Shown here piece by piece: positions 865 to 62,242 of a DNA stretch of 64,000 bases. The DNA comes from Sphingomonas sp. HDW15A (GTDB taxonomy: Bacteria; Pseudomonadota; Alphaproteobacteria; Sphingomonadales; Sphingomonadaceae): assembly GCF_011301715.1 (NCBI RefSeq), contig NZ_CP049870.1, positions 806,001 to 870,000 on the forward strand, written 5' to 3'. The position numbers and the translations under genes were made by a program. The notes beneath the pieces were generated by a model. It was not told the origin of the DNA and ran no database searches. It worked only from the letters and a program-made list of their open reading frames with translations. Each line of letters opens with the position of its first letter. Positions within the stretch are counted from its first letter, which is position 1.

Positions 865-2190
865 ATGTGGAAATTTCTTCCAGAACTGCTGGCTACACCA
901 GTCCCTCGCTATACCAGCTATCCAACCGCGGCCGAGTTCCATGAAGGCATAGGCGAATCTGAGCAGTGCGCCGGCCTGAAAGGCGTAGGCGCGGAAGAGG
1001 AGATATCCTTGTATCTCCATATCCCATATTGCCGCGAGATCTGCTGGTACTGCGGCTGCAACACGGGCGCGGCCAATAAAAGCCAGCGGCTGGCAAACTA
1101 CCTGGAACGGCTCACGCAGGAAATTGACCTTGTGGCGGCCGGCCTGGATGGCCGCGGCCGCGCCGTCCGCGTTTCTTTTGGTGGCGGCAGCCCCAACGCG
1201 ATCGCGCCAGAGCAATTCCTGGCTCTGATGGATCATCTCAAGTCGGCCTTTGCACTTCCAAGTTCGACAGAGATTTCGGTTGAAATCGATCCACGTGGTT
1301 TCGATGAAGCATTTGCCGAGGCCCTGGCCGGGGCGGGGGTTACCAGGGCAAGCTTGGGCGTTCAGACTTTCAGTCCCGAGATCCAGGCCGCGATCGGCCG
1401 AATTCAGCCCCGGCACGCGATCGAGCGATCCGTTTCGCTATTGCGCAGTGCCGGGATCACCTCGCTGAATTTCGATCTAATGTACGGCTTGCCTCGCCAG
1501 GACGAGGCAGCATTGGTGGAGAGCATAGAAGAAAGTCACGATTTCGGCGCGGATCGCCTGGCGGTCTTTGGGTATGCTCATGTGCCCCATATGGTACCGC
1601 GCCAGCGTCGAATCGACACGGAATCGCTGCCTGATGCGCCGCTACGTTTTCGCCAGGCGAACACCGCCTATGACTGGCTGGTATCGCGGGGTTGGAAGGC
1701 GGTCGGGTTCGACCATTTCGCACGTAGTCATGATCCATTGAGCTTGGCGGCCCGAGAGGGAAGAGTTCGGCGGAATTTCCAAGGCTTCACTGATGACCGC
1801 TGCGATACGCTGATCGGACTAGGTGCTTCGGCGATCAGCCGATTTCCGGGGGCATTGGTCCAGAACGAGCGAAATAGTGGCCGCTATTCGATGAAGGTGG
1901 GGCTTGGGCGACTGGCCGGTGCAAAAGGCGTGGCAACTCCTCCCAGCGAGCGCTTGCGCGGGCGTCTCATCGAGGAGTTATTGTGCCAGGGATCGACCGA
2001 CATTGGCAAAATGCCCGAACGGCTGACAGTGCGTTATCGGCTGCGCGACTTCGAGGCTTCGCGGCTCATCCGTTGGACGGACTGGCGTCTCGAGTTGCTG
2101 GAAGGTGCAATACCCTATGCACGAAGCGTGGCCGCTGCTCTCGATCCTTGGCGTAAGCAATCGACGAAACAGTTCTCCACCGCCGTGTAA
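865..2190 (+). CDS. hemN: Oxygen-independent coproporphyrinogen III oxidase HemN
   Basis: This is a radical-SAM enzyme that decarboxylates coproporphyrinogen III to protoporphyrinogen IX without oxygen, for haem synthesis. Near residues 56-65 it has the radical-SAM cysteines in PYCREICWYCGC (Cx3Cx2C plus a fourth Cys), followed by SFGGGSPN, EIDPRG and the C-terminal HemN region. The N-terminus MWKFLPELLATPVPRYTSYPT is family-typical, so I chose the ATG at 865 (441 residues). An in-frame TTG at 817 lies inside the FNR-type box. There is no good ribosome-binding site before 865, so a leaderless transcript is possible. Confidence 0.93.
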   Translation: MWKFLPELLATPVPRYTSYPTAAEFHEGIGESEQCAGLKGVGAEEEISLYLHIPYCREICWYCGCNTGAANKSQRLANYLERLTQEIDLVAAGLDGRGRAVRVSFGGGSPNAIAPEQFLALMDHLKSAFALPSSTEISVEIDPRGFDEAFAEALAGAGVTRASLGVQTFSPEIQAAIGRIQPRHAIERSVSLLRSAGITSLNFDLMYGLPRQDEAALVESIEESHDFGADRLAVFGYAHVPHMVPRQRRIDTESLPDAPLRFRQANTAYDWLVSRGWKAVGFDHFARSHDPLSLAAREGRVRRNFQGFTDDRCDTLIGLGASAISRFPGALVQNERNSGRYSMKVGLGRLAGAKGVATPPSERLRGRLIEELLCQGSTDIGKMPERLTVRYRLRDFEASRLIRWTDWRLELLEGAIPYARSVAAALDPWRKQSTKQFSTAV

Positions 2191-2200
2191 CGCGCTCGCG

Positions 2201-2908
2201 CTAGGCCCCAGCACTATCCAATGCGCTTTTGACGACAGGAGCCATTCGCCCCGCGACGATCTCGACGCCGCGCGCATTGGGATGGATGTCATCGCCGAGC
2301 ATCAGGTCTTTGTTTCCGACCACGCCCTCCAGCGTGAAGGGATAAAGCGAGACGTCATATTTTTCCGCGAGATCGCGGTAGATGACGTTGAAGGCATTTG
2401 CGTAATCCGGACCCATGTTGGGCGCGGCGATTATTCCGCTAAGCATTGCCGGGATATTCCGCCGCTTAAGCTCGGCCAGGATCGCATCGAGGTTCTGGCG
2501 CGTCTGCTCGGGGGATATGCCGCGCAACATGTCGTTTCCGCCAAGGCCTACGATCACCAGGTCGGGTTTGCGGGGCTGACCGTCGAGCGTGAAGGCGAGG
2601 CGTTGCAGCCCTGCCGCACTGGTGTCGCCGGAGACACCGGCATTGACCACCTCGGCCTCGACACCTGCTTTGGCGAGCGCGCGGTCCAGCGCCGGGGCGA
2701 GACCCTCATTCTGAGCTAGCCCATATCCCGCAAAGAGGCTGTCGCCGAACGCCACGATCAGCGGCCCCGCTTCCTTGGCTGGCGATGCGATAGGCGGCGG
2801 TGCAACGGCATTTTGCGGTGCCGGCGGCGGCGGCTCATCACGAGAACATGACACAAGCGCTTGGACAAGCAGCAGCAGTCCACCATATGAAGTCCACGTC
2901 TTCGCCAA
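2201..2908 (-). CDS. tesA: Arylesterase/lysophospholipase TesA-like lipoprotein
   Basis: This is an SGNH-fold hydrolase of the TesA (thioesterase I / lysophospholipase L1) family. Block I is VAFGDSLFAGYG, block III contains GGND and block V is DDIHPN, giving the Ser-Gly-Asn-His and Asp catalytic residues. The N-terminus has a hydrophobic stretch ending in a lipobox (LVSC), so it is probably a lipoprotein. The start is TTG, preceded by GGGAAGG. It is divergent from ybbA with only about 14 bases between the starts. The tesA / ybbA / ybbP neighbourhood is conserved in proteobacteria. Confidence 0.88.
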   Translation of the reverse strand: MAKTWTSYGGLLLLVQALVSCSRDEPPPPAPQNAVAPPPIASPAKEAGPLIVAFGDSLFAGYGLAQNEGLAPALDRALAKAGVEAEVVNAGVSGDTSAAGLQRLAFTLDGQPRKPDLVIVGLGGNDMLRGISPEQTRQNLDAILAELKRRNIPAMLSGIIAAPNMGPDYANAFNVIYRDLAEKYDVSLYPFTLEGVVGNKDLMLGDDIHPNARGVEIVAGRMAPVVKSALDSAGA

Positions 2909-2922
2909 GGAACCTTCCCTTC

Positions 2923-3621
2923 ATGACATCGTCGACGACGGCCGATCCTATCGCGATCCGCGCCAAGAATGTCACCCTTACTCTCGGAACGAAAACGGCC
3001 CCGGTCGAAATCCTGCGAGGAGTCGACGTCGAGGTCCGCCACGGCGAGAGCGTGGCGATCCTCGGCGCGTCTGGCTCGGGCAAGTCCTCCCTGATGGCGG
3101 TCTTGTCCGGCCTGGAAAGAGCGACGGGTGGGAGCGTCAACATCAACGGCGTGGAATTCTCGAATCTTGGCGAAGATGAATTGGCGAAGGCCAGGCGCGG
3201 CAGAATCGGAATCGTGCTCCAGGCCTTTCATCTCCTGCCGACCATGACCGCGGTCGAGAATGTCGCCGTACCTCTCGAGCTCGCTGGCCGCGAAGATGCT
3301 TTCGAGCGTGCCGCTCAAGAACTCACGGCTGTTGGTCTGGGGCACCGTCTCAACCATTATCCGGCGCAGCTGTCCGGGGGCGAGCAGCAACGCGTTGCGA
3401 TCGCGCGCGCAGTCGCACCAAACCCGGCCATCCTCTTTGCCGACGAGCCCACGGGGAATCTCGATGCGGCGACCGGTGCGGCGATCATCGACCTGCTCTT
3501 CGAGCGTCAGAAGGCCGCGGGTGCGACACTGGTCATCATCACGCACGACCCTGCCCTTGCAGACCGCTGCGACCGGATCCTGTCGATGACCGATGGCAAG
3601 CTGGGCGAGCTGGTTTCGTGA
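2923..3621 (+). CDS. ybbA: ABC transporter ATPase, YbbA/LolD type
   Basis: This is the ATP-binding subunit of a MacB/LolD-like exporter class often found beside tesA. Walker A is GASGSGKSS, the signature motif is LSGGEQQR, Walker B runs ILFADEP, and the switch histidine lies in ITHD. I chose the ATG at 923 bases past 2000 ([12 protein letters not shown]), giving 232 residues; an upstream ATG at 2887 is in frame but overlaps tesA. The stop overlaps the permease start as GTGA, implying translational coupling. The substrate is unknown; lipid or lipoprotein handling is inferred from the family. Confidence 0.9.
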
Positions 3622-51745: not shown

Positions 51746-52606
51746 ATGTCTAAGTCCGCTGCCGAGTTGGTGTTACAGCGTGAGACTCGGGTCTCGTATG
51801 GCGTGGTTCCAACCTATCTATTTGACTCGCCACTCGAACAAACGAGTTGGCAGATGGGTGAGGAAGATTTCCTTCTGCGGGGCGAGGGCAATCATTACTT
51901 TTACTATCGGCGCGGCGAAGGAGTGACCGTTTATCGCGGAGCAGATGCAGACCTGAGCGAGGAGTCCCTATGGCTCAATGGCACGGTCTATTCCGCTATC
52001 GCGAGCATGAACGGACTTTTGCCCATTCACGCGTCGGCGGTTGCATATAACGGCTTGGTATACGCCTTCACAGGAGTGGCGGGGGCGGGGAAGTCCACCT
52101 TGGTTGCCGCACTTGCACGGCACGGACTGCCAATGTTTTGCGACGATACGCTTGTCCTCGATCTTTCCACCCCTGATCGAGTGATGTGTCTTCCAGGACA
52201 TAAGCGCTTGAAGTTGTGCGAGGATGCGTTCGCGCTGACGAACGCCGCCCGCCAAGAGAAAGTCTCGCAAACGTACGAGAAATTTTATGCCGCGCCGGCC
52301 GCGGGAACGGTGCAAAGGGCTTTGCCGATGGGCGAATTAGTGTTCCTCGAGGAAGGACCAGAGGTCAGCCTGTCGCAACTTTCGGGCTCGGAGCGATTCA
52401 TTAGAATGCAGGACGAGCATCAAACGGCTTATCTGTTCGAAGCGGCACGTCGCTCCAGCCGCGTCGACCAGTTCGCTCATCGCGCACGCCTTGCAAAACA
52501 GATTCCCATGGCCCGCTTTCAGCGACCAAGAGACGCAGCGAGATTCGACGAAGGGGTGGCATTTGTGGCCGAACATGTCATGGATAAGCGAGAGCTAAGC
52601 GCATGA
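51746..52606 (+). CDS. HprK-like kinase of the lasso cluster
   Basis: This 286-residue protein of the HPr kinase-like family is found in some lasso-peptide clusters. Walker A is GVAGAGKST (residues 110-118). An HprK-type HASAV lies just before it and an FCDDTLVLDL segment follows. In the paeninodin and thermotoga-type clusters, such kinases phosphorylate the C-terminal serine of the precursor. Its stop overlaps the PqqD-like start as ATGA. A short AAGGT precedes the ATG. Confidence 0.85.
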   Translation: MSKSAAELVLQRETRVSYGVVPTYLFDSPLEQTSWQMGEEDFLLRGEGNHYFYYRRGEGVTVYRGADADLSEESLWLNGTVYSAIASMNGLLPIHASAVAYNGLVYAFTGVAGAGKSTLVAALARHGLPMFCDDTLVLDLSTPDRVMCLPGHKRLKLCEDAFALTNAARQEKVSQTYEKFYAAPAAGTVQRALPMGELVFLEEGPEVSLSQLSGSERFIRMQDEHQTAYLFEAARRSSRVDQFAHRARLAKQIPMARFQRPRDAARFDEGVAFVAEHVMDKRELSA

Positions 52607-52869
52607 CGTATCTCAGCAAAATGGCTGACCGCCTCACTGAAGCGGAAATTGACGATGAGATTGTCGTCATGCGCACGGATACCGGCGAATTCTACTCGTT
52701 AACCGGGACCGCAGCGGCGATTTGGCGCCTAATCGACGGGACTAGGGATCGCGCGGCCGTGACTTGCGCGCTTTCCGACGAGTTTAACGGGCAAAAGGCC
52801 AGCATATCTCGCGAAGTGAACGAATTTGTCTCCGAGCTAGAAGAGCTTGGGCTCATTACCCATTCCTGA
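52603..52869 (+). CDS. PqqD-like RRE protein (lasso B1)
   Basis: This 88-residue protein has a PqqD fold: a winged helix-turn-helix with YSLTGTAAAIWRLIDGTRD and a C-terminal helix (VNEFVSELEELGLI). Such proteins (RiPP recognition elements, B1) bind the leader peptide and present it to the processing enzymes. It is translationally coupled to the kinase and overlaps the B2 gene. Confidence 0.88.
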   Translation: MTYLSKMADRLTEAEIDDEIVVMRTDTGEFYSLTGTAAAIWRLIDGTRDRAAVTCALSDEFNGQKASISREVNEFVSELEELGLITHS

Positions 52870-53290
52870 GCGCTGGAAATCGCGACTGCGTACGGCGACG
52901 AGCTTGGCATCCTTGTGTTTGGCCCGGACCGTGGTCGCAACGCTGCCCTTCAGCTGGTGGCGCGATAGCCTTGGCAAAACGAGACCGGGAGACGGGAACA
53001 GTGAGGCGGCTTCGGTCGCACAGAAATTTGCGGCACATGTCGAGTGGGCAGCGAGGCTCCTGCCCTTCGAGGCCAAGTGTCTGCCGAGAGCAATGGCGCT
53101 TAGCTGGATCCTCCGATCCAGGCGGATCAAACACGCTGTCGTCTTCGCGGTCCGCCCGCCTAGTAGGCGAAATTCTGATGATCAGCTCCACGCTTGGGTC
53201 GAAGTGAACAGCGAGATCATCCTCGGAGATTTGCCAGGACCCTGGGTCGAAACGTTGCGCCTGGGGGATAAGCCCCTCTGGGCCAAGTAA
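52847..53290 (+). CDS. Lasso leader peptidase B2 (transglutaminase-like)
   Basis: This 147-residue protein has the Cys-His-Asp protease layout of the B2 family: Cys78 in EAKCLPRAM, His115 in DDQLHAWVEV and Asp128 in IILGDLPG. B2 cleaves the leader from the precursor with B1 bound. The start (TTG at 52847) overlaps the end of the PqqD gene by 23 bases and could be a little later; the ribosome-binding site is weak. Confidence 0.85.
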   Translation: MGSLPIPERWKSRLRTATSLASLCLARTVVATLPFSWWRDSLGKTRPGDGNSEAASVAQKFAAHVEWAARLLPFEAKCLPRAMALSWILRSRRIKHAVVFAVRPPSRRNSDDQLHAWVEVNSEIILGDLPGPWVETLRLGDKPLWAK

Positions 53291-53386
53291 ATTTGAGTTA
53301 ATGATAGCTTGCAACCTGCGGGCGGGTCGCGCATTATTGTGATAGTCCGTGCACATGCGTGTCGCCGGTTGCGCAGGGAGCTGAGT

Positions 53387-53509
53387 ATGAACCAGAGTAC
53401 ACAAACGCCGAATAATTGGGCAAAACCGGAAATCCGCCGGCTCGGTACGATCAAGGATGTTGCCGGAAACACCGGGAACGGCACTCAGCAAGGTAACAAC
53501 AAAAGCTGA
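53387..53509 (+). CDS. Lasso-type RiPP precursor peptide
   Basis: This 40-residue peptide has a good ribosome-binding site (AGGGAG). Residues 11-20 read WAKPEIRRLG, an exact aromatic-xx-P-x-I-xxx-G match to the lasso leader recognition motif (YxxPxLxxxG). The C-terminal part is GNTGNGTQQGNNKS, ending in Ser, the residue phosphorylated by lasso kinases. There is no Asp or Glu in the presumed core, so a standard seven- to nine-residue macrolactam ring cannot be drawn. It sits between B2 and the cyclase gene. Confidence 0.75.
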   Translation: MNQSTQTPNNWAKPEIRRLGTIKDVAGNTGNGTQQGNNKS

Positions 53510-53580
53510 CCCTCGCACTTTTCCGCGTTCCAGGCCGAACTGCCTTACTGCATTTCGATAAATTGATCGCCTGACCGGCA

Positions 53581-55510
53581 ATGCTGGCCCTTGCTTGGCC
53601 TTGGGCCGATTCATCACCGGATAAATTCATTGGGTCCTCTGCGCGACTAGCTGCATCACTTTGTTCGGGTATTGGTGGTTATGCAGGCACTTCCACGATT
53701 GCCGAAGTCCACTCCGCTTATCGGCCCTCCGATCGACCCTCGCGCAGAGCAAAGCCTGGCGTCCGGCAACTCTGCCCGACGGGAAGATTGCTATCTTCCA
53801 TGGCTACTTTGATAATGCCGCGGAGATCGCCGAGGAGCTGGATACGGATTGTGTCGACCGAGGCCACCTATATGCTCTCGCGGTAGAGCGGTGGGGCGAC
53901 GAGTCCGACCTCAAGATCATCGGTGATTATTGTTCGGTTATGGCCGATCCGCGAGAGCGCCTACTTCGGTTGGCAAGAAGCCCCTTGCGTGCGCCGCCAC
54001 TCTACTATTCTCATGACGACCATCAGGCCGTAGTTGGCTCTGTTCCGCGAATTTTCTTCGCGGCAGGTCTTCCCCAGCGGCTTAATGAAGATCGCGTGGT
54101 TGATAGCGGGATGCTTTACTTTCTCGACGAGGAAGCGAGCTGGTTCAAGTCAATTCATCGGGTCCCGCTGGGTTGTGTCGTAGAGCTTCGTCCCGGGCAA
54201 CCTCGGATCCTCAAACGCTATTACGATCCGCTAGCCACACCAAAGGTGGACGTTCGAAGCGATGAAGAATGCCTCGCGCGGGTCAGTGAGCTCTTGGATG
54301 AAGCGGTGCAGGTTTGCCTCTCTGGTTTCCGAAAACCGGGGGTGACACTCTCCGCCGGTCTCGATTCCCCTCAAATCGCCGTACGGGCTCTGCCTGCCAT
54401 TCCGGCCGGGCAGAAACTGCCGACATTCACCTTCCATCCAGAGGCGGGATATGACGGCATCGTTCAGGCCGGGATGACCGGGGACGAGCGTCCGATGGTC
54501 GAGGCTTTCGCCAAACTACACCCCGGGATCGAGCCGCATTTCACGGCCAACGAGGGATACAGCCATGATCATCGCTGGAACGAATTTTTCCATTTGATGG
54601 GGGGGCCCCATCAGGGCTTTGCAACATGTACGTCTTCCACGGACTGTTTGCCGGTGCGGCGAAGGAGGGTTGCGACGTCCTTCTGCAGTCCGACTGGGGA
54701 AACAATGCATTCAGCGACAAGGGGGACTGGGGCTTCGTCGAGTATCTGATCAAAGGTCGATGGCGACAGCTCTGGTTGGCTCTGCGAAATAATCCCGGTC
54801 CCAAACGATCCATAGCATGGCGCTTCGCCGCGCATTGCATGCTTCCGTTGCTGCCTGCACCTCTCTGGCGGCTCGCCAGAAAGATAACTAGGCCGAATGA
54901 CGCGCCGATACGCGAACTGATCCAGCCTTTCACACGAAGCTATCGCGAACGGTCCGGGTTCGATGGGCGATTAAAAAATTCGGGCGTCGTTCTCGACCGC
55001 TATCAGCCTTGGAGTTCCAGGCATGCCCGCCAATTGCTTCTCCCACGCGAAGACCATGAGGTGGCAGAAATCTACCAGGCCTTTGAGCAGATGTATGGTA
55101 TTCCGCAGCGCGACCCGATGGCATACCGTCCTCTGGTTGAATATTGCTGGGGATTGCCCACGCGGATGTTCATGCGAGACGGAGAAACCAGGTGGCTTGC
55201 CAAGCGTGCTGCCAAAGACCTGATGCCGGAGGAACAGCGCGCAAACCGGCTCAATGGTCGATGGGACGCCGATTGGCATATTCGGGTTGGGCGCCGTCGC
55301 GTCGAATATCTCGCCGAGTTTGACCGTCTCGAAAAGAACGAGCGCATTGCGGACATGATCGACTTGCCACGATTGCGGTCTGCCCTTGAAGACTGGCCCA
55401 CGCAGACCGAAACTGACCCATCCGTTTTCGCGCCCCTAGAGCTGGGAGTTCCAAGAGCGCTATTGACCGCACGCTTCGTGAATTATGTCGAGGGGCGTAA
55501 CGAGCAGTGA
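53581..55510 (+). CDS. Lasso cyclase (asparagine-synthetase-like; frameshifted twice)
   Basis: The reconstructed protein has about 643 residues with an Asn-synthetase fold. The N-terminus (MLALAWPWADSSPDKF) is in the first frame. An inferred missing C at 53725-53727 leads to STLAQSKAWRPATLPDGK and the PP-loop GVTLSAGLDSPQIA in the second frame. A missing G in the 7-G run at 54599-54605 then leads to the final third (LMGGAPSGLCNMYVFHG onward) in the third frame. This family activates a side-chain carboxylate with ATP and closes the lasso ring. The exact start is uncertain. Confidence 0.82.
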
Positions 55511-56580
55511 ACGCTCGAATGCTCGCGCCCGAATTCCGCCTGCTGGTTCAATGTTGTCAGTGGAATTTCGCGGATGCGAGCAAGAGCTCCGTTGACCTTA
55601 CGGATGGGCTAGACTGGAAACTCGTTCTGGCCCTTGCTCGGCGCCATAGGGTCCAAGGTTTGGTGTGGAATGCTCTCGCGCAATACGCCAACAATATGCC
55701 GGTCGACATCAAGGATGCGCTCGCGTCGGACGCCAGGTCGATTGCCGCGAACAACCTTGCCATCGCTGGCGAATGCCGAGCCATACTAACCGAGTTTGAC
55801 CAAGCCGGCATTTCTCTATTGTTCGTCAAAGGTCTGACGGTCGGTGCCCTCGCTTATCGCTCACCTCTGATGAAAATGGGGTGGGACATTGATTTGCTAA
55901 TCGACGCCAGAGATCTGGAAGAAGCCGCGAGGCTGCTTGAAAGGCGCGGCTATGGAGTTCGCATACCTTCGAAACGTGCGCAGCTTCATGCCTGGCACAG
56001 GCCGAGCAAGGAATCCGTATGGAGCCGCGACGATCTTTTTCACGTTGAGCTGCACACCCGCCTCTCTGACAACCAAAGGTTGATCCCGACTTTGGGAGTG
56101 CATTCCCCGAGTCAGTTTGTCGAAGTTGCGCCAGGCGTCTCGCTCAAGACCTTGGCCAAAGAGGAATTGTTTGCGTATTTGTCCGTTCACGGCGCCTCGA
56201 GCGCGTGGTTCCGGCTCAAGTGGATCTCGGATTTTGGAGCGCTCATTTACGGTCTTTGTAATGAAGAGTTGGAGCGTTTTTATCGCGTTTCGCAGAAGAT
56301 GGGTGCCGGGCGAGCGGCAGGCCAGGCACTACTCTTGGCAGATGCCATGTTCAATTCGCTGGCGTGCAGTCCTGCCCTGAGGAAACAGATAGAGAGTGAT
56401 CCTGCAAACGAGTGGCTGGCGCGAGCGGCCTTCCAATTGATGACGGGCGAGGTTCGCGAGCCGACAGAGCGGCATCTAGGCACTCTCACGATTCACTGGA
56501 CTCAGTTTTTCCTGCGATCTGGACTGGGCTTCAAGTTCTCCGAGCTCGCCCGGCAGATTTTGAGTCTAATCTATCGATAG
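55507..56580 (+). CDS. Nucleotidyltransferase-family protein of the lasso cluster
   Basis: This 357-residue protein resembles the uncharacterised NTase group (PF14907-like) that accompanies some lasso clusters. The core is LLFVKGLTVGALAYRSPLMK then MGWDIDLLID with a DxD (about residues 127 and 129). It is coupled to the cyclase by a GTGA overlap. Related proteins near lasso kinases are thought to modify the phosphorylated peptide further; the chemistry here is unknown. Confidence 0.75.
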   Translation: MNARMLAPEFRLLVQCCQWNFADASKSSVDLTDGLDWKLVLALARRHRVQGLVWNALAQYANNMPVDIKDALASDARSIAANNLAIAGECRAILTEFDQAGISLLFVKGLTVGALAYRSPLMKMGWDIDLLIDARDLEEAARLLERRGYGVRIPSKRAQLHAWHRPSKESVWSRDDLFHVELHTRLSDNQRLIPTLGVHSPSQFVEVAPGVSLKTLAKEELFAYLSVHGASSAWFRLKWISDFGALIYGLCNEELERFYRVSQKMGAGRAAGQALLLADAMFNSLACSPALRKQIESDPANEWLARAAFQLMTGEVREPTERHLGTLTIHWTQFFLRSGLGFKFSELARQILSLIYR

Positions 56581-56750
56581 ACCACGGATTCGCTCTCTCG
56601 GGCCATTTTGCCGCTGCTGCGACATTCTAGGTGAAATCAGATCGAGTGTATCGGAGGGGACTTCATCGTAACCCGCTTGCAGCGCACTTCGACACTCGTC
56701 TAGGGCCGCATGGCGGATGGCATACCTGCCGGCCGGAAAAGGACTGTACC

Positions 56751-57794
56751 TTGTTCGCTTACTGGCTGCTGTTTGGACTCTTTGCTGTTGGGGCAGTGAC
56801 TGAGCAATCGCGGCGTCCAGGCGATTTTCGTGCCGACCCCGTCCTGATCGTCCTCGGAATCTTCATGATCCTGATGATTGGATTGAGGTTTCACGTAGGT
56901 GCCGATTACGAAGCCTATCTTCGAATCTTTGATTACGTCTCGCGTCTGACTTTCCTCGAGGCTCTCCAACGAGATGACCCGGGTTACCACGTCCTGAACT
57001 GGGTTGTTGCAAGCTTTGATGGCAGCGTGTGGCTCGTTAATCTGGTATGCGGAGGCATATTCGGCTGGGGTCTCTTGCGGCTTTGCCAGACGGAGCCGTC
57101 TCCGCGAACCGCGGCGTTAGTTGCCATCCCCTACCTCGTAATCGTTGTGGCCATGGGCTATACCCGTCAGGCTGTGGCCATTGGTTTCATCATGGCCGGG
57201 ATTGCGTCACTCGCCCGAGGCGGCTCAAGCATCAAGTTCATAGTCTACGTCGCCTTCGCCGCGCTTTTTCATAAGACGTCGGTAGTCGTCCTGCCTCTCG
57301 CCATTTTTGCAGGACAGCGAAACCATTTCCTGAACGCTTTGGCCGTGCTGGTTGCGGCCTACGCACTGTATGATGCTCTTCTCGAGGAGTCTGTTGACCA
57401 ACTTGTCGCGAGTTACATTGACGCCCGGTACGAGTCTCAGGGAGCGGCCATTCGCGTCGCAATGAATGTTGTGCCGGCTCTAATCATCCTATTCGCAGGT
57501 CGCCAATTGTGTTTGGATGAAAGGATGCTGCGATTCTGGCGGCTTGTTGCCTTCGCCGCACTGGCATGCGTGCCCGCGCTATTCCTGTTGCCCTCGACTA
57601 CTGCAGTAGACCGCGTCGCGCTTTATCTGCTGCCCATTCAGGTCGTTGGCATCGGAAGATCGATTTTCCTTTTTAAATCTTACGGTTTCTCAAAGGCACT
57701 GGTTGTGGGCTACTGTTTTGCAGTGCTTTATGTCTGGCTCAACTTTGCAAGCCATTCCTTTGCTTGGCTTCCGTATCGCACGGTAATCCAGTGA
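56751..57794 (+). CDS. EpsG/Wzy-like membrane protein
   Basis: This 347-residue polytopic protein of the EpsG family (about nine to eleven helices) is linked to polysaccharide polymerisation or export. The family feel comes from RFHVGADYEAYLRIFDYVSR, then MGYTRQAVAIGFIMAG and ALFHKTSVVVLPLAI. The TTG at 56751 with AAAAGGA is the best start: the in-frame region from 56631 lacks hydrophobicity and a ribosome-binding site. It opens the exopolysaccharide locus. Confidence 0.8.
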   Translation: MFAYWLLFGLFAVGAVTEQSRRPGDFRADPVLIVLGIFMILMIGLRFHVGADYEAYLRIFDYVSRLTFLEALQRDDPGYHVLNWVVASFDGSVWLVNLVCGGIFGWGLLRLCQTEPSPRTAALVAIPYLVIVVAMGYTRQAVAIGFIMAGIASLARGGSSIKFIVYVAFAALFHKTSVVVLPLAIFAGQRNHFLNALAVLVAAYALYDALLEESVDQLVASYIDARYESQGAAIRVAMNVVPALIILFAGRQLCLDERMLRFWRLVAFAALACVPALFLLPSTTAVDRVALYLLPIQVVGIGRSIFLFKSYGFSKALVVGYCFAVLYVWLNFASHSFAWLPYRTVIQ

Positions 57795-57851
57795 TGGCTG
57801 TTCAATCCAAAATAGTCATAGGCAGAAAATCGTACTGCGAAAGGTGAGCAT

Positions 57852-58733
57852 GTGAAGGGCATAATTCTTGCGGGCGGAAGCGGTAGTCGTCTATTCCCAG
57901 CGACGAGAGTCGTCTCAAAGCAGTTATTGCCGGTCTACGACAAGCCGATGATTTACTATCCGCTCGGCGTACTGATGCTCGCTGGTATTCGCGAGATTCT
58001 CATCATTTCAACGCCGACGGACTTGCCACGATTCAAAGATCTCCTGGGCGACGGAAGCGCCTTCGGGTTAACGCTTGAATATGCCGAACAGGCTGCCCCT
58101 AATGGATTGGCTGAAGCCTTCATCATAGGGCGGGAATTCGTCGGAGACGACAACGTAGCGCTGATACTCGGCGACAATATTTTTTATGGCGCCGGTTTGA
58201 GCGAACTTCTTTTGAGCGCCACACAGCAGGAAAAAGGCGCGACGGTCTTCGCTTATCTGGTGGAGGATCCCGAGCGGTATGGCGTAGTGGCATTTGATCC
58301 GGATACGGGCCTTGCCAACTCTATCGAGGAAAAGCCTTCTGAGCCCAAGTCGCGCTGGGCGGTTACCGGTCTGTACTTCTACGACAATCGCGTACTCAAC
58401 ATCGCCGCCGATCTTAAGCCGAGCGCGCGTGGCGAGCTCGAGATTACCGACGTCAACCGCGCCTATCTTGAAAACGGGTCGTTGAGAGTGGTGCGGATGG
58501 GCCGCGGTTATGCCTGGCTCGATACCGGAACGCACGACAGCCTTCACGATGCGGCGTCGTACGTCCGCACCATCGAGAAGCGGCAGGGCTTCAAGGTTAT
58601 GTGCCTAGAAGAGATAGCTTTGGAACTCGGATGGCTTCAACCAGAGTCGCTGCGCACCCGGGCCGCCAGTCTTGGGAAGACTGAATATGCCAATTACCTC
58701 CGAATGCGCGCCGATGAGCATGATCATGCTTGA
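57852..58733 (+). CDS. rfbA: Glucose-1-phosphate thymidylyltransferase RfbA/RmlA
   Basis: This 293-residue enzyme makes dTDP-glucose, the first step to dTDP-L-rhamnose. It shows [36 protein letters not shown], then ILGDNIFYG and [10 protein letters not shown]. The GTG start is preceded by AAAGGTGAG. It is the first gene of a complete rfbACBD set; rfbC begins inside its last codons. Confidence 0.95.
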
Positions 58734-59280
58734 GATCCGTCGGCTCGCGATCCCCGACGTTATTGAGATCCGCACACCGCGCCATCGCGACGAACGCGGC
58801 TTCTTCTCGGAAACCTGGAACAAGGTTGATTGGAACGATGCGGGCATCCAGCTCGAGTTCGTCCAACACAATCATAGCATGTCCGCCCCAGCCGGCGTAC
58901 TGCGCGGTCTTCATTATCAACTACCTCCTTACGCCCAGGAAAAGCTCATTCGCGTCACTCGCGGCGCAATATTCGATGTGGCAGTAGATATCCGCCGGTC
59001 GTCGCCAACTTTTGGCGGGTGGGTGGGTGCTACTTTGAGTGCCGCCGACTGGAACCAGGTCCTCATCCCGAAGGGCTTCGCCCACGGCTTCCTGACCCTC
59101 GAGCCCGATACCGAAGTCCAGTACAACGTGACCGCACCGTATTCTCCGGCGCACGATCGCGCGATCCGCTACGACGATCCGACTATTGGAATTGACTGGC
59201 CCTCTAGTGGGTACGACCTGATTCTGTCCTCGAAGGACGCCGCTGCGCCGCTCCTCGCCGACGCGGAGCTGTTTGCGTGA
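58714..59280 (+). CDS. rfbC: dTDP-4-dehydrorhamnose 3,5-epimerase RfbC/RmlC
   Basis: This protein has about 188 residues, with several ATGs clustered at 58714, 58720 and 58726. The core [20 protein letters not shown] carries the catalytic His, and [34 protein letters not shown] and GIDWP complete the family. It overlaps rfbA by 20 bases or less and rfbB by GTGA. Confidence 0.93.
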
Positions 59281-60332
59281 AGACGCTCCTAGTTACCGGC
59301 GGAGCTGGTTTCATTGGCAGCGCTGTCGTCCGTCGGCTCGTTGGTGAGGGATATCGCGTCATCAACCTCGACAAGTTGACATACGCTGGAAATCTCGCGT
59401 CGCTACGCGACGTCGAAGGCGCGTCGAATTATCGTTTCGTCCAAGCCGACATCGCCGACACCGACCAGGTCATCGGGCTGCTAGCCGAGGAACAGGTCGA
59501 TGGCATCATGCACCTCGCCGCCGAAAGCCATGTCGACCGCTCCATTGATGGTCCCGCGGCGTTCGTTGAAACCAACGTAGTTGGTACGTTCCGCTTGCTG
59601 AACGCCGCACTGAGCCACTGGCGTACACTTGACGACGAGGCCAAGGCGAACTTCCGTTTCCACCACGTCTCGACCGACGAGGTGTTCGGCGACCTGCCCT
59701 TCGATAGCGGCATCTTCACAGAAGAAACGCCCTATGCCCCGTCGTCGCCTTACTCGGCCTCGAAGGCATCCAGCGACCATTTTGTGCGCGCGTGGCACGA
59801 GACCTACGGCCTTCCGGTCGTGCTTTCCAACTGCTCGAACAACTACGGCCCCTATCACTTTCCGGAGAAGTTGATTCCGCTGATCATCTTAAATGCACTC
59901 GAGGGCAAGTCGCTGCCGGTCTACGGCAAGGGCGAGAATGTCCGTGACTGGCTGTTCGTCGACGATCACGCCCGTGCGCTCGAGCTGGTGCTGACCAAGG
60001 GACGCGTGGGCGAAAGCTACAATGTCGGGGGCCGTGCTGAGCGCACCAACCTGCAGGTGGTCGAGGCGATTTGCGATCTGCTCGACGAACGTCGGCCGCT
60101 GAACGACGTGAAGCGCCGCGATCTCATCAGTTTCGTCCCTGATCGCCCTGGCCACGACCGCCGCTATGCCATCGATGCGTCGAAAATCTCGGCCGAACTT
60201 GGCTGGGAGCCAAAGCAGACGTTCGAGAGCGGCCTTGCCGCGACCATTGACTGGTTCCTCGCGAACGACTGGTGGTGGGAACCGATCCGCTCCGGCTGTT
60301 ACGCCGGTGCACGCCTCGGCACGGTAAGATGA
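59277..60332 (+). CDS. rfbB: dTDP-glucose 4,6-dehydratase RfbB/RmlB
   Basis: This 351-residue SDR enzyme has [15 protein letters not shown], the Thr-Asp-Glu catalytic element in [10 protein letters not shown], and the Tyr-Lys pair in [11 protein letters not shown]. It makes dTDP-4-keto-6-deoxyglucose. It overlaps rfbC by GTGA and rfbD by ATGA, consistent with tight co-expression. Confidence 0.95.
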
Positions 60333-61194
60333 GGATCCTGGTCAGCGGCCGCGACGGGCAGGTCGCGCGCAGCCTCGCGGAGCGCGGACCCGCCATCGAT
60401 TGGATCTTTGCAAGGCGCCCCGATTGCGACTTAGCCGAGCCCGGCAGTTTCGCCGCCGCCATAGACTACGCGCGCCCTGACCTCGTCATCAACGCCGCCG
60501 CCTATACCGCCGTCGACCGCGCCGAAGACGAGGAAGCGCTCGCCCACCGCATCAATGCCGACGCTGCCGGGGAGGGGCAGAGGCCGCTGCGCGGATCGGA
60601 ATACCGTTCGTCCATCTTTCCACCGACTATGTTTTTGACGGCTCGGGCACTCGTCCGTGGCGGGAAGACGATCCGGTCTCGCCCTTGGGCGCCTATGGTC
60701 GCACCAAGGCAGCTGGCGAAACCGTGGTCGTTGCGGCCAGCCCCACGCACAGCGTGGTTCGCACCAGCTGGCTGGTCGGCCCGTTCGGCCACAATTTCGC
60801 GAGAACCATTCTGCGCCTCGCCGCTGACCGCGATGAAATCAAGGTTGTCGCCGACCAGCACGGCTGCCCGACCAGTTCTCTCGACCTCGCCGACGCGCTA
60901 ATCGCGCTAGCGGATTGCGCAATTGCCGGCCGCGCGGGCGGCATCTGGCATTTGGCGGGGCAGGGCACGGCCAGCTGGGCGGACCTCGCCGAGGAAATCT
61001 TTACCGTCAGTGCCGCCCACGGCGGCCCTTCGGCCCAAGTGAAGCGCATCGCCACCGCCGACTACCCAACCCCTGCGAAACGCCCGGCCAACAGTATTCT
61101 GGATGGCACCAAGGTCCGCGACGCGCTCGGTATCGCGCTCCCTGACTGGCGAGTGGGCGTAGGTGCGTTCGTTCCCCGCTTTATCAACGCATGA
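60329..61194 (+). CDS. rfbD: dTDP-4-dehydrorhamnose reductase RfbD/RmlD (frameshifted)
   Basis: This is the final step to dTDP-L-rhamnose. The N-terminal frame ([40 protein letters not shown]) breaks at the GGGG of 60574-60577. The rest runs one frame back: [16 protein letters not shown], then [12 protein letters not shown] with the catalytic Tyr-Lys, and SWLVGPFG. One extra G restores [16 protein letters not shown] and a normal enzyme of about 288 residues. Confidence 0.88.
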
Positions 61195-62242
61195 CCCGCG
61201 TCCTTGCCCTGACCAAATACGGACGCGCGGCGGCTAGCACACGGCAACGCTTGGTGCAGTACGTGCCCGCTCTCGCCAATGCGGGCTTCCGCATCGACGT
61301 TCGACCGTTGCTAGACGACGATTATGTCGCCGCGCTGGCTTCCAGTGCGTCCTATCCGAAGAGCCGGCTGCTCAGCGCCTTTGCACGCCGCTTCGCGGAT
61401 CTCGGGCGCGCCCAGGACTATGACCTTCTTTGGGTCTATGCTGAAATCTATCCCAAGCTACCAAGCTTGTTCGAGGCGCTGGCGATCATGGCCGGCCCCC
61501 TGTCATTTACGACTACGATGACGCCTTCTTTCACGATCACGAGCGGAGTACGCTCCTCCGGGGTAAGTTGAAGCCGTTGATTGCCGGTGCCGCGGCGGTT
61601 ACCGCCGGGAACGCTTATCTCGCCGACTATGCACGGCGCTGGAACGCCAACGTCCACATCATCCCGACGACGGTCGACACTGACGCCTACGCCCCTGTTG
61701 CGTCGCGTCCGGCCGGCCCACCCGTGATCGGCTGGATCGGCAGCCCGTCGACCTGGGCTTACGTCCGTCCCTATTTGCCCCTGCTGGCCGACCTCTGCGC
61801 CGGGGGCCGAGCCCAGTTCCTCGCGGTCGGCGCGGGGAGGGACGCCGAGGCCGACCGCTTCGAAGGTATGGAGGCGCGGGACTGGGCTGAGCATCGCGAA
61901 GTCGCAGACGTGCAAGCTATGGACATCGGCATTATGCCGCTCCCCGACGAGCCGTGGGCGCGCGGCAAGTGCGGCTACAAGCTCATTCAGTACATGGCGT
62001 GTGGCCTGCCGGCCGTAGCCTCGCCCGTCGGAGTTAACGTCCAGATCGTGAAGGTCGGCCAGACCGGTTTTCTCGCCAACAGTAATAGCGACTGGCGCAG
62101 CGCGCTCCAGCACCTCATCGACACCCCGGGCGACCGGGCCCGCCTTGGCGCAGCCGGTCGCGCCCGCGCCATCGCCGACTACTCACTTGCTTCGTGGGCT
62201 CCGAGAGTCGTAGACCTGTTCTGTTCAGTCGTCAGCCGATAA
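61191..62242 (+). CDS. Glycosyltransferase (frameshifted)
   Basis: This is a GT1/GT4-fold glycosyltransferase. The N-terminal half ([40 protein letters not shown]) breaks after IMAG at the CCCCC of 61496-61500. The true continuation (VIYDYDDAFFHDHERSTLL, then KLKPLIAGAAAVTAGN) and the C-terminal half (PVIGWIGSPSTWAYV, IGIMPLPDEPWARGKCGYK, ACGLPAVASPVGVN) run one frame back. One extra C gives a protein of about 350 residues. It overlaps rfbD as ATGA, so it is probably a rhamnosyl or other EPS sugar transferase. Confidence 0.82.

Follow-up and report, generated by a model that had tools for sequence, protein, structure and literature searches.

A kinase-bearing lasso-type peptide cluster of Sphingomonas with glutamine in the column of the ring-closing acid

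The window analyzed here, a 64,000-nucleotide stretch of the Sphingomonas sp. HDW15A genome (contig NZ_CP049870.1, positions 806,001 to 870,000), carries a six-gene cluster for a lasso-type ribosomally synthesized and post-translationally modified peptide (RiPP) whose precursor core contains neither Asp nor Glu. The genes lie on the plus strand in the order kinase, B1, B2, precursor, cyclase, and nucleotidyltransferase (NTase), as found by sequence reading and family scans. The initial annotation had given this order and assumed an ordinary lasso product, for which the macrolactam acceptor is missing; the absence of the acid, which it overlooked, is on sequence grounds a real finding. We propose that the cluster belongs to a Sphingomonadales family of kinase-bearing lasso-type RiPPs, many of them with Gln replacing Asp/Glu, and that the cyclase closes the ring on this Gln, a reading to which we give about an even chance.

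The precursor gene (53387..53509), identified from its sequence, alignment A2, and profile matches, encodes 40 amino acids. When the Ala that follows the leader residues DV is counted as residue 1, the core reads AGNTGNGTQQGNNKS; it has no Asp or Glu, so that the ring-closing residue expected at core positions 7 to 9 of a lasso peptide is absent, and Gln9 (codon 53486..53488) occupies the acceptor column, where relatives have Q, E, or D. A second small open reading frame (ORF) as the true precursor was considered and rejected: among ORFs of at least 35 amino acids, the precursor frame is the only one on the plus strand that is fully contained in the interval from B2 to the start of the cyclase. 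A chance arrangement is excluded because the same gene order was found again in relatives and a 90%-identical precursor is present in a public JGI protein set.

Relatives were gathered through the kinase, which matched in 158 of the 298 genomes of the family at an E-value of 0.001, mostly weakly; 30 loci were taken and 20 were enlarged, and their precursors were identified by the leader. Within the genus, the precursor family matched in 4 of 71 genomes, namely the window genome, G274 (locus L032), G305 (L119), and G331 (L120), the DNA of the last being the same, in a 4 kb comparison, as that of L052 (Sphingomonas sp. URHD0057). Acid-less precursors occur in other genera as well. In L071 (Croceicoccus hydrothermalis JLT1), the core from Ala1 is AGNGTVQNQGRSSGSVANS, with a calculated MH+ of 1790.838 if linear, 1772.827 as an amidine (less H2O), and 1773.811 as a lactam (less NH3), to which each phosphate would add 79.966 and each hexose 162.053. 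No precursor was found in L037, L044, L047, L053, L055, L058, L063, L067, L069, L073, and L074, some of these loci being truncated at contig ends. The precursors of L072 and L048 are of other types, with acids, and were left out of the counts, as were L045, L046, L049, and the distant loci L075 to L114; L090, L095, L098, L100, L106, and L110 have, by eye, T(-2)-type precursors with an Asp in the ring zone. A profile search of a protein database with alignment A2 (27 precursors) returned 70 proteins, and the distinct cores from both sources, which share P0001, came to 88, or 89 with L119 added.

Among these 89 distinct cores, 55 have no acid at positions 8-9 and 52 have no acid at all. By type, 44 have Gln9 only, 8 have Gln10, and there is 1 each with Gln8, Asn9, and another arrangement; the acid types comprise Glu/Asp9 (21) and Asp8-Gln9 (13), every one of the 13 Asp8 cores in the 88-core set also having Gln9. 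Among the 54 cores without an acid at positions 7-10, Gln stands in the acceptor column 43 times, while the maximum in 2000 residue shuffles was 19, and a thinned set of 29 diverse cores gave 21 observed versus a shuffle maximum of 12. The observed counts exceed the shuffle maximum, and Gln is therefore retained where the ring-closing acid would stand.

The position of Gln holds up under different assumptions about the cleavage site. In 82 of the 89 leaders, DV directly precedes the residue taken as the first of the core, and the leader residue at -2 is D, V, or A depending on the putative cleavage site. An Ile/Val(-2) leader pattern has been reported for Sphingomonadales (PMC10368454), and cleavage by the Val(-2) pattern makes the Gln residue 8, while the spacing of the YxxPxL motif (-17 to -12, PMC10368454) makes it residue 7. 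All three registers (9, 8, or 7) keep the Gln among residues 7 to 9, where the acceptor usually lies.

For ring closure on Gln we infer the following course. B1 would hold the leader, the kinase would phosphorylate the C-terminal Ser of the precursor (codon 53504..53506), and B1 and B2 would remove the leader, with cleavage directly behind ...KDV or one or two residues downstream. The cyclase would link the newly exposed N-terminus to the conserved Gln through the Gln side chain, closing a ring of 7 to 9 residues, and the NTase would add a sugar or a nucleotide to the phosphate. In the closure that we favor, the cyclase would use ATP to activate the side-chain carbonyl of the Gln, which the N-terminal amine would then attack with loss of water to give a macrocyclic amidine. 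The preference comes from relatives among the ATP-pyrophosphatases, such as argininosuccinate synthetase, TilS, and GMP synthetase, in which an activated amide-like carbonyl takes up an amine. Nearly as likely, ammonia would be lost instead, giving an ordinary lactam. The proposed phosphorylation and decoration of Ser follow from published relatives (review). Together these steps might define a subclass of RiPPs, with a lasso-type cyclase that activates the Gln side-chain amide and joins it to the N-terminus as a macrocyclic amidine, and with a phospho-glycosylated C-terminal Ser as the bulky end; we put the chances of this well short of even.

Several points weigh against a ring on Gln, beginning with what the peptide itself offers. 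The core may start one or two residues away from the assumed site, all 13 Asp8-Gln9 cores could close on Asp8, and three of the 89 cores (P0036, P0056, and P0062) have neither Gln nor an acid at positions 9-10. In the database precursors P0036 (Leu9-Asn10) and P0062 (Asn9), neither is found at positions 8-10. The 26 genome precursors divide into 12 without an acid at 8-9, 8 with Glu/Asp9, and 6 with Asp8-Gln9, so that Gln without an acid accounts for just under half and no majority; this is the less biased figure, as the database profile included Gln rows. In microcin J25, ring mutants that carry Gln in place of Glu are reportedly not cyclized. On the side of the enzymes, the cyclase frame of the window is broken, and no cyclase residue convincingly separates the Gln from the Glu types: the column before the invariant Arg (position 535 of L052) separates 16 Gln-bearing from 8 Glu/Asp cyclases, a split that 5 of 300 label shuffles reached without a correction for relatedness. 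There may also be a distant helper enzyme, the flanking genes being annotated in part, and the product is so far a predicted one.

The tails raise a further difficulty, and with it the first of the other explanations. After position 9 there are six residues in the window core and four in L052, short tails that make threading doubtful, and only 18 of the 89 cores have an aromatic residue after position 9, so the decorated Ser may provide the sole bulky end. The peptide could then have no ring on Gln, being linear or closed through its C-terminal carboxylate, with a C-terminally phospho-glycosylated peptide as the product. The often short tails and the scarcity of aromatic residues are consistent with this, as are the C-terminal carboxylate being the sole carboxyl group in 52 of the 89 cores and the Ser (84) or Thr (4) that ends 88 of 88 cores. 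We consider such a product unlikely, since it leaves unexplained why Gln stands precisely in the alignment column that Glu or Asp fills in relatives. The tails of some Gln-type cores contain a pair of Cys residues, CGPSPC and CTVGSPSC being examples (L035:6161-6292; L033:7329-7484; L059:8703-8861), which hints at a disulfide.

A second alternative is that the Gln is first deamidated to Glu, either by an enzyme of the host or by the cyclase itself, and that an ordinary lasso macrolactam then forms. Glu and Gln do replace each other within a single column and between related cyclases: on a tree of 29 cyclases, which leaves out the window cyclase, L051, and L119, the Glu label needs at least 4 changes, so related enzymes meet either residue. 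The cyclase itself has a domain that could be suspected of the deamidation. A confident model of the Gln-type cyclase of L052 (predicted local distance difference test score, pLDDT, 90.4) has a predicted asparagine-synthetase fold and matches TsnB9, beta-lactam synthetase, and asparagine synthetase B over most of its length, with 12-18% identity in the aligned parts; these are small-molecule enzymes, as their entry titles also indicate. Its N-terminal domain has the predicted glutaminase fold. The nucleophile of a glutaminase is the Cys after the initiator Met, and this Cys, the mark of a glutamine-hydrolyzing asparagine synthetase, is absent: of the 17 relatives (out of 24) with a Met start placed, 16 have Leu or Ile as the second residue and one is truncated, and the window cyclase piece, L032, L052, and L119 all start MLA with the starts as placed. 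Moreover, no deamidase gene was seen between the kinase and the NTase in the genus, and Gln has been retained although a Glu codon is one base away. Prior deamidation is accordingly quite improbable in our estimation.

Given the broken cyclase frame, this could also be a standard phosphorylated lasso cluster in which the gene of the acid-less precursor has been misread or has decayed. When compared with four uninterrupted relatives by tblastn, the cyclase (53581..55510), an asparagine-synthetase-like protein of the lasso type, lies in three reading frames, and the operon, initially called complete, is thus not so. The N-terminal part of the cyclase starts at 53,581, the middle part near 53,727, and the remainder near 54,506, with the first frame change at about 53,727-53,793 and the second between about 54,506 and 54,626. 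This copy may therefore be non-functional. The rmlD gene (dTDP-4-dehydrorhamnose reductase, 60272-61194), a few kb away, is also split between two frames; the sequence may thus hold errors, and the two splits together may reflect indel errors in the assembly. A sequencing error and a very recent break of the cyclase are both possible. The comparison of the pieces shows no sign of long decay: the two large ones share 60% and 66% identity with the G274 cyclase, and the values for the intact G305 cyclase, taken over comparable stretches, are close to these at 62% and 60%. The relatives largely refute a misread or decayed gene, as 55 of the 89 cores are without an acid at 8-9 and acid-less precursors go with uninterrupted cyclases in other genera and in three congeners (L119, L032, and L052), which pair Gln-type precursors with intact enzymes; we regard it as very unlikely.

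Least probable of all, and hardly to be credited, is that B2, a member of the transglutaminase-like superfamily, whose chemistry on Gln is well known, joins the N-terminus to Gln with release of ammonia in place of the cyclase: B2 is described as the leader protease, the cyclase is retained, and the Gln-type cluster of G274 has no B2, with one match elsewhere in the genome.

The clusters L032:3279-7700 and L050:6220-9489 have no B2 gene inside, and each of the two genomes has one B2-family match elsewhere, which suggests that B2 works in trans for these clusters. A second B2-family match is also present in the Sphingomonas sp. HDW15A genome (2.34 Mb, one contig), far from the cluster (L126, G000:C1:42816-43049).

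Family scans of the remaining genes support a lasso-type RiPP operon with a kinase and an NTase, as do the gene order and the relatives, and a RiPP recognition element (RRE) protein B1, a B2, an asparagine-synthetase-like cyclase in three frames, and a small precursor are found together in it. Placement in the lasso families by hidden Markov models, whose failure was to count against the initial annotation, succeeded in part. B2 (52847..53290), a transglutaminase-like Cys protease and putative leader peptidase, passes lasso_biosyn_B2 (NF033537, 67.1 bits, cut-off 33) and matches PF13471. B1 (52603..52869), a stand-alone PqqD-like RRE, passes Pfam PqqD (PF05402, 57.7 bits, cut-off 23.4) and falls below both NCBIfam lasso PqqD models (35.1 against 80 and 34.6 against 70). 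Both large cyclase pieces pass Pfam Asn_synthase (PF00733) and are below the cut-off of lass_lactam_cya (NF033535; 74.4 and 28.3 against 525). The NTase-like protein (NTP_transf_5, PsmN/BsfN type, 55507..56580) passes PF14907 (146.2 bits, cut-off 31.2), and its gene adjoins the cyclase in all 4 precursor-bearing genomes of the genus, Sphingomonas sp. HDW15A included; it had been described as fused in, while it is a separate gene that overlaps the cyclase end by 4 bases. The gene ends do mostly overlap, as first noted, at three of the five junctions (-4, -23, and -4 bases, with starts as in the ORF list), the other two being gaps of 96 and 71 bases.

The HprK-like peptide kinase (51746..52606) is below the cut-offs of the HprK-related models (HprK_rel_A/B; best 34.3 against 200), and H95, K116, D133, and D134 are invariant in 17 aligned kinases. 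His-Lys-Asp-Asp is the catalytic motif reported for lasso kinases in a review. As in paeninodin-type clusters, a kinase with this motif accompanies a precursor with a C-terminal Ser, which by analogy with paeninodin and SyanA, and with Ser/Thr ending the relatives, the kinase is expected to phosphorylate.

Polysaccharide genes adjoin the cluster at 56631-62242 (an EpsG family gene, rmlA/C/B/D types, and a glycosyltransferase), and in the congeners L032, L119, and L120, sugar or polysaccharide genes are likewise present among the flanking ORFs scanned. Clustering of neighboring genes was swamped by antisense ORFs and of little use; the one clear additional gene that it yielded encodes an ATP-binding cassette (ABC) transporter, as identified by Pfam for the copy in L032, and belongs to a group that extends to 16 of the 26 loci. 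In L032 this gene is directly before the kinase (1544-3283). No match to it was found within L119 or L120, and the window has only 25-31% matches far from the cluster and no close copy beside it.

Parts of this gene set have precedents. Paeninodin and SyanA/SyanK have in common with the window cluster a split B1/B2, a cyclase, an HprK-like kinase, and a conserved C-terminal Ser (reviews), but their rings close on Asp/Glu, whereas the window core is acid-less with Gln instead (SyanA being compared by its description). SyanK is the kinase of a sphingomonad, Sphingobium yanoikuyae, in which a kinase-bearing lasso cluster has been published (review). The pseudomycoidin (psm) cluster of Bacillus pseudomycoides has the kinase PsmK and the nucleotidyltransferase PsmN beside its lasso genes, and the C-terminal Ser receives a phosphate and then one or two hexoses (review); the window cluster likewise contains a PF14907-type nucleotidyltransferase gene, and pseudomycoidin, described as a lasso peptide, differs in host and precursor (review). 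The bsf cluster of Bradymonas sediminis shares A, B1, B2, C, the kinase, and the NTase, and its precursor has Ile at leader position -2; it differs in a Gly1-Asp8 ring, a kinase that acts on Ser3, and the presence of an ABC transporter (PMC10368454). The words Gln and glutamine are absent from the main text of that paper. Lasso clusters with a kinase and an NTase, and a kinase-bearing cluster in a sphingomonad, are thus already known, contrary to the novelty first claimed for the combination. Gln as a ring acceptor was found in no description in the literature searched, which includes PMC8498205, PMC9266682, PMC10368454, PMC12670498, and PMC13352647 and has most subscription papers outside it, and an earlier report is possible.

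Lasso peptides are defined by a ring-closing Asp or Glu, and searches that demand the acid would miss the Gln precursors. A family that keeps the lasso machinery with Gln at the acceptor position would break the Asp/Glu rule, and the consequence would be either a new ring chemistry, amidine formation or transamidation, performed by a well-studied enzyme family, or enzymes of this family that make non-lassos. If the amidine reading is true, this would be, to our knowledge, the first lasso-type ring closed other than through a carboxylate. The natural series of Gln, Glu, and Asp-Gln precursors would offer a probe of how the cyclase chooses its acceptor.

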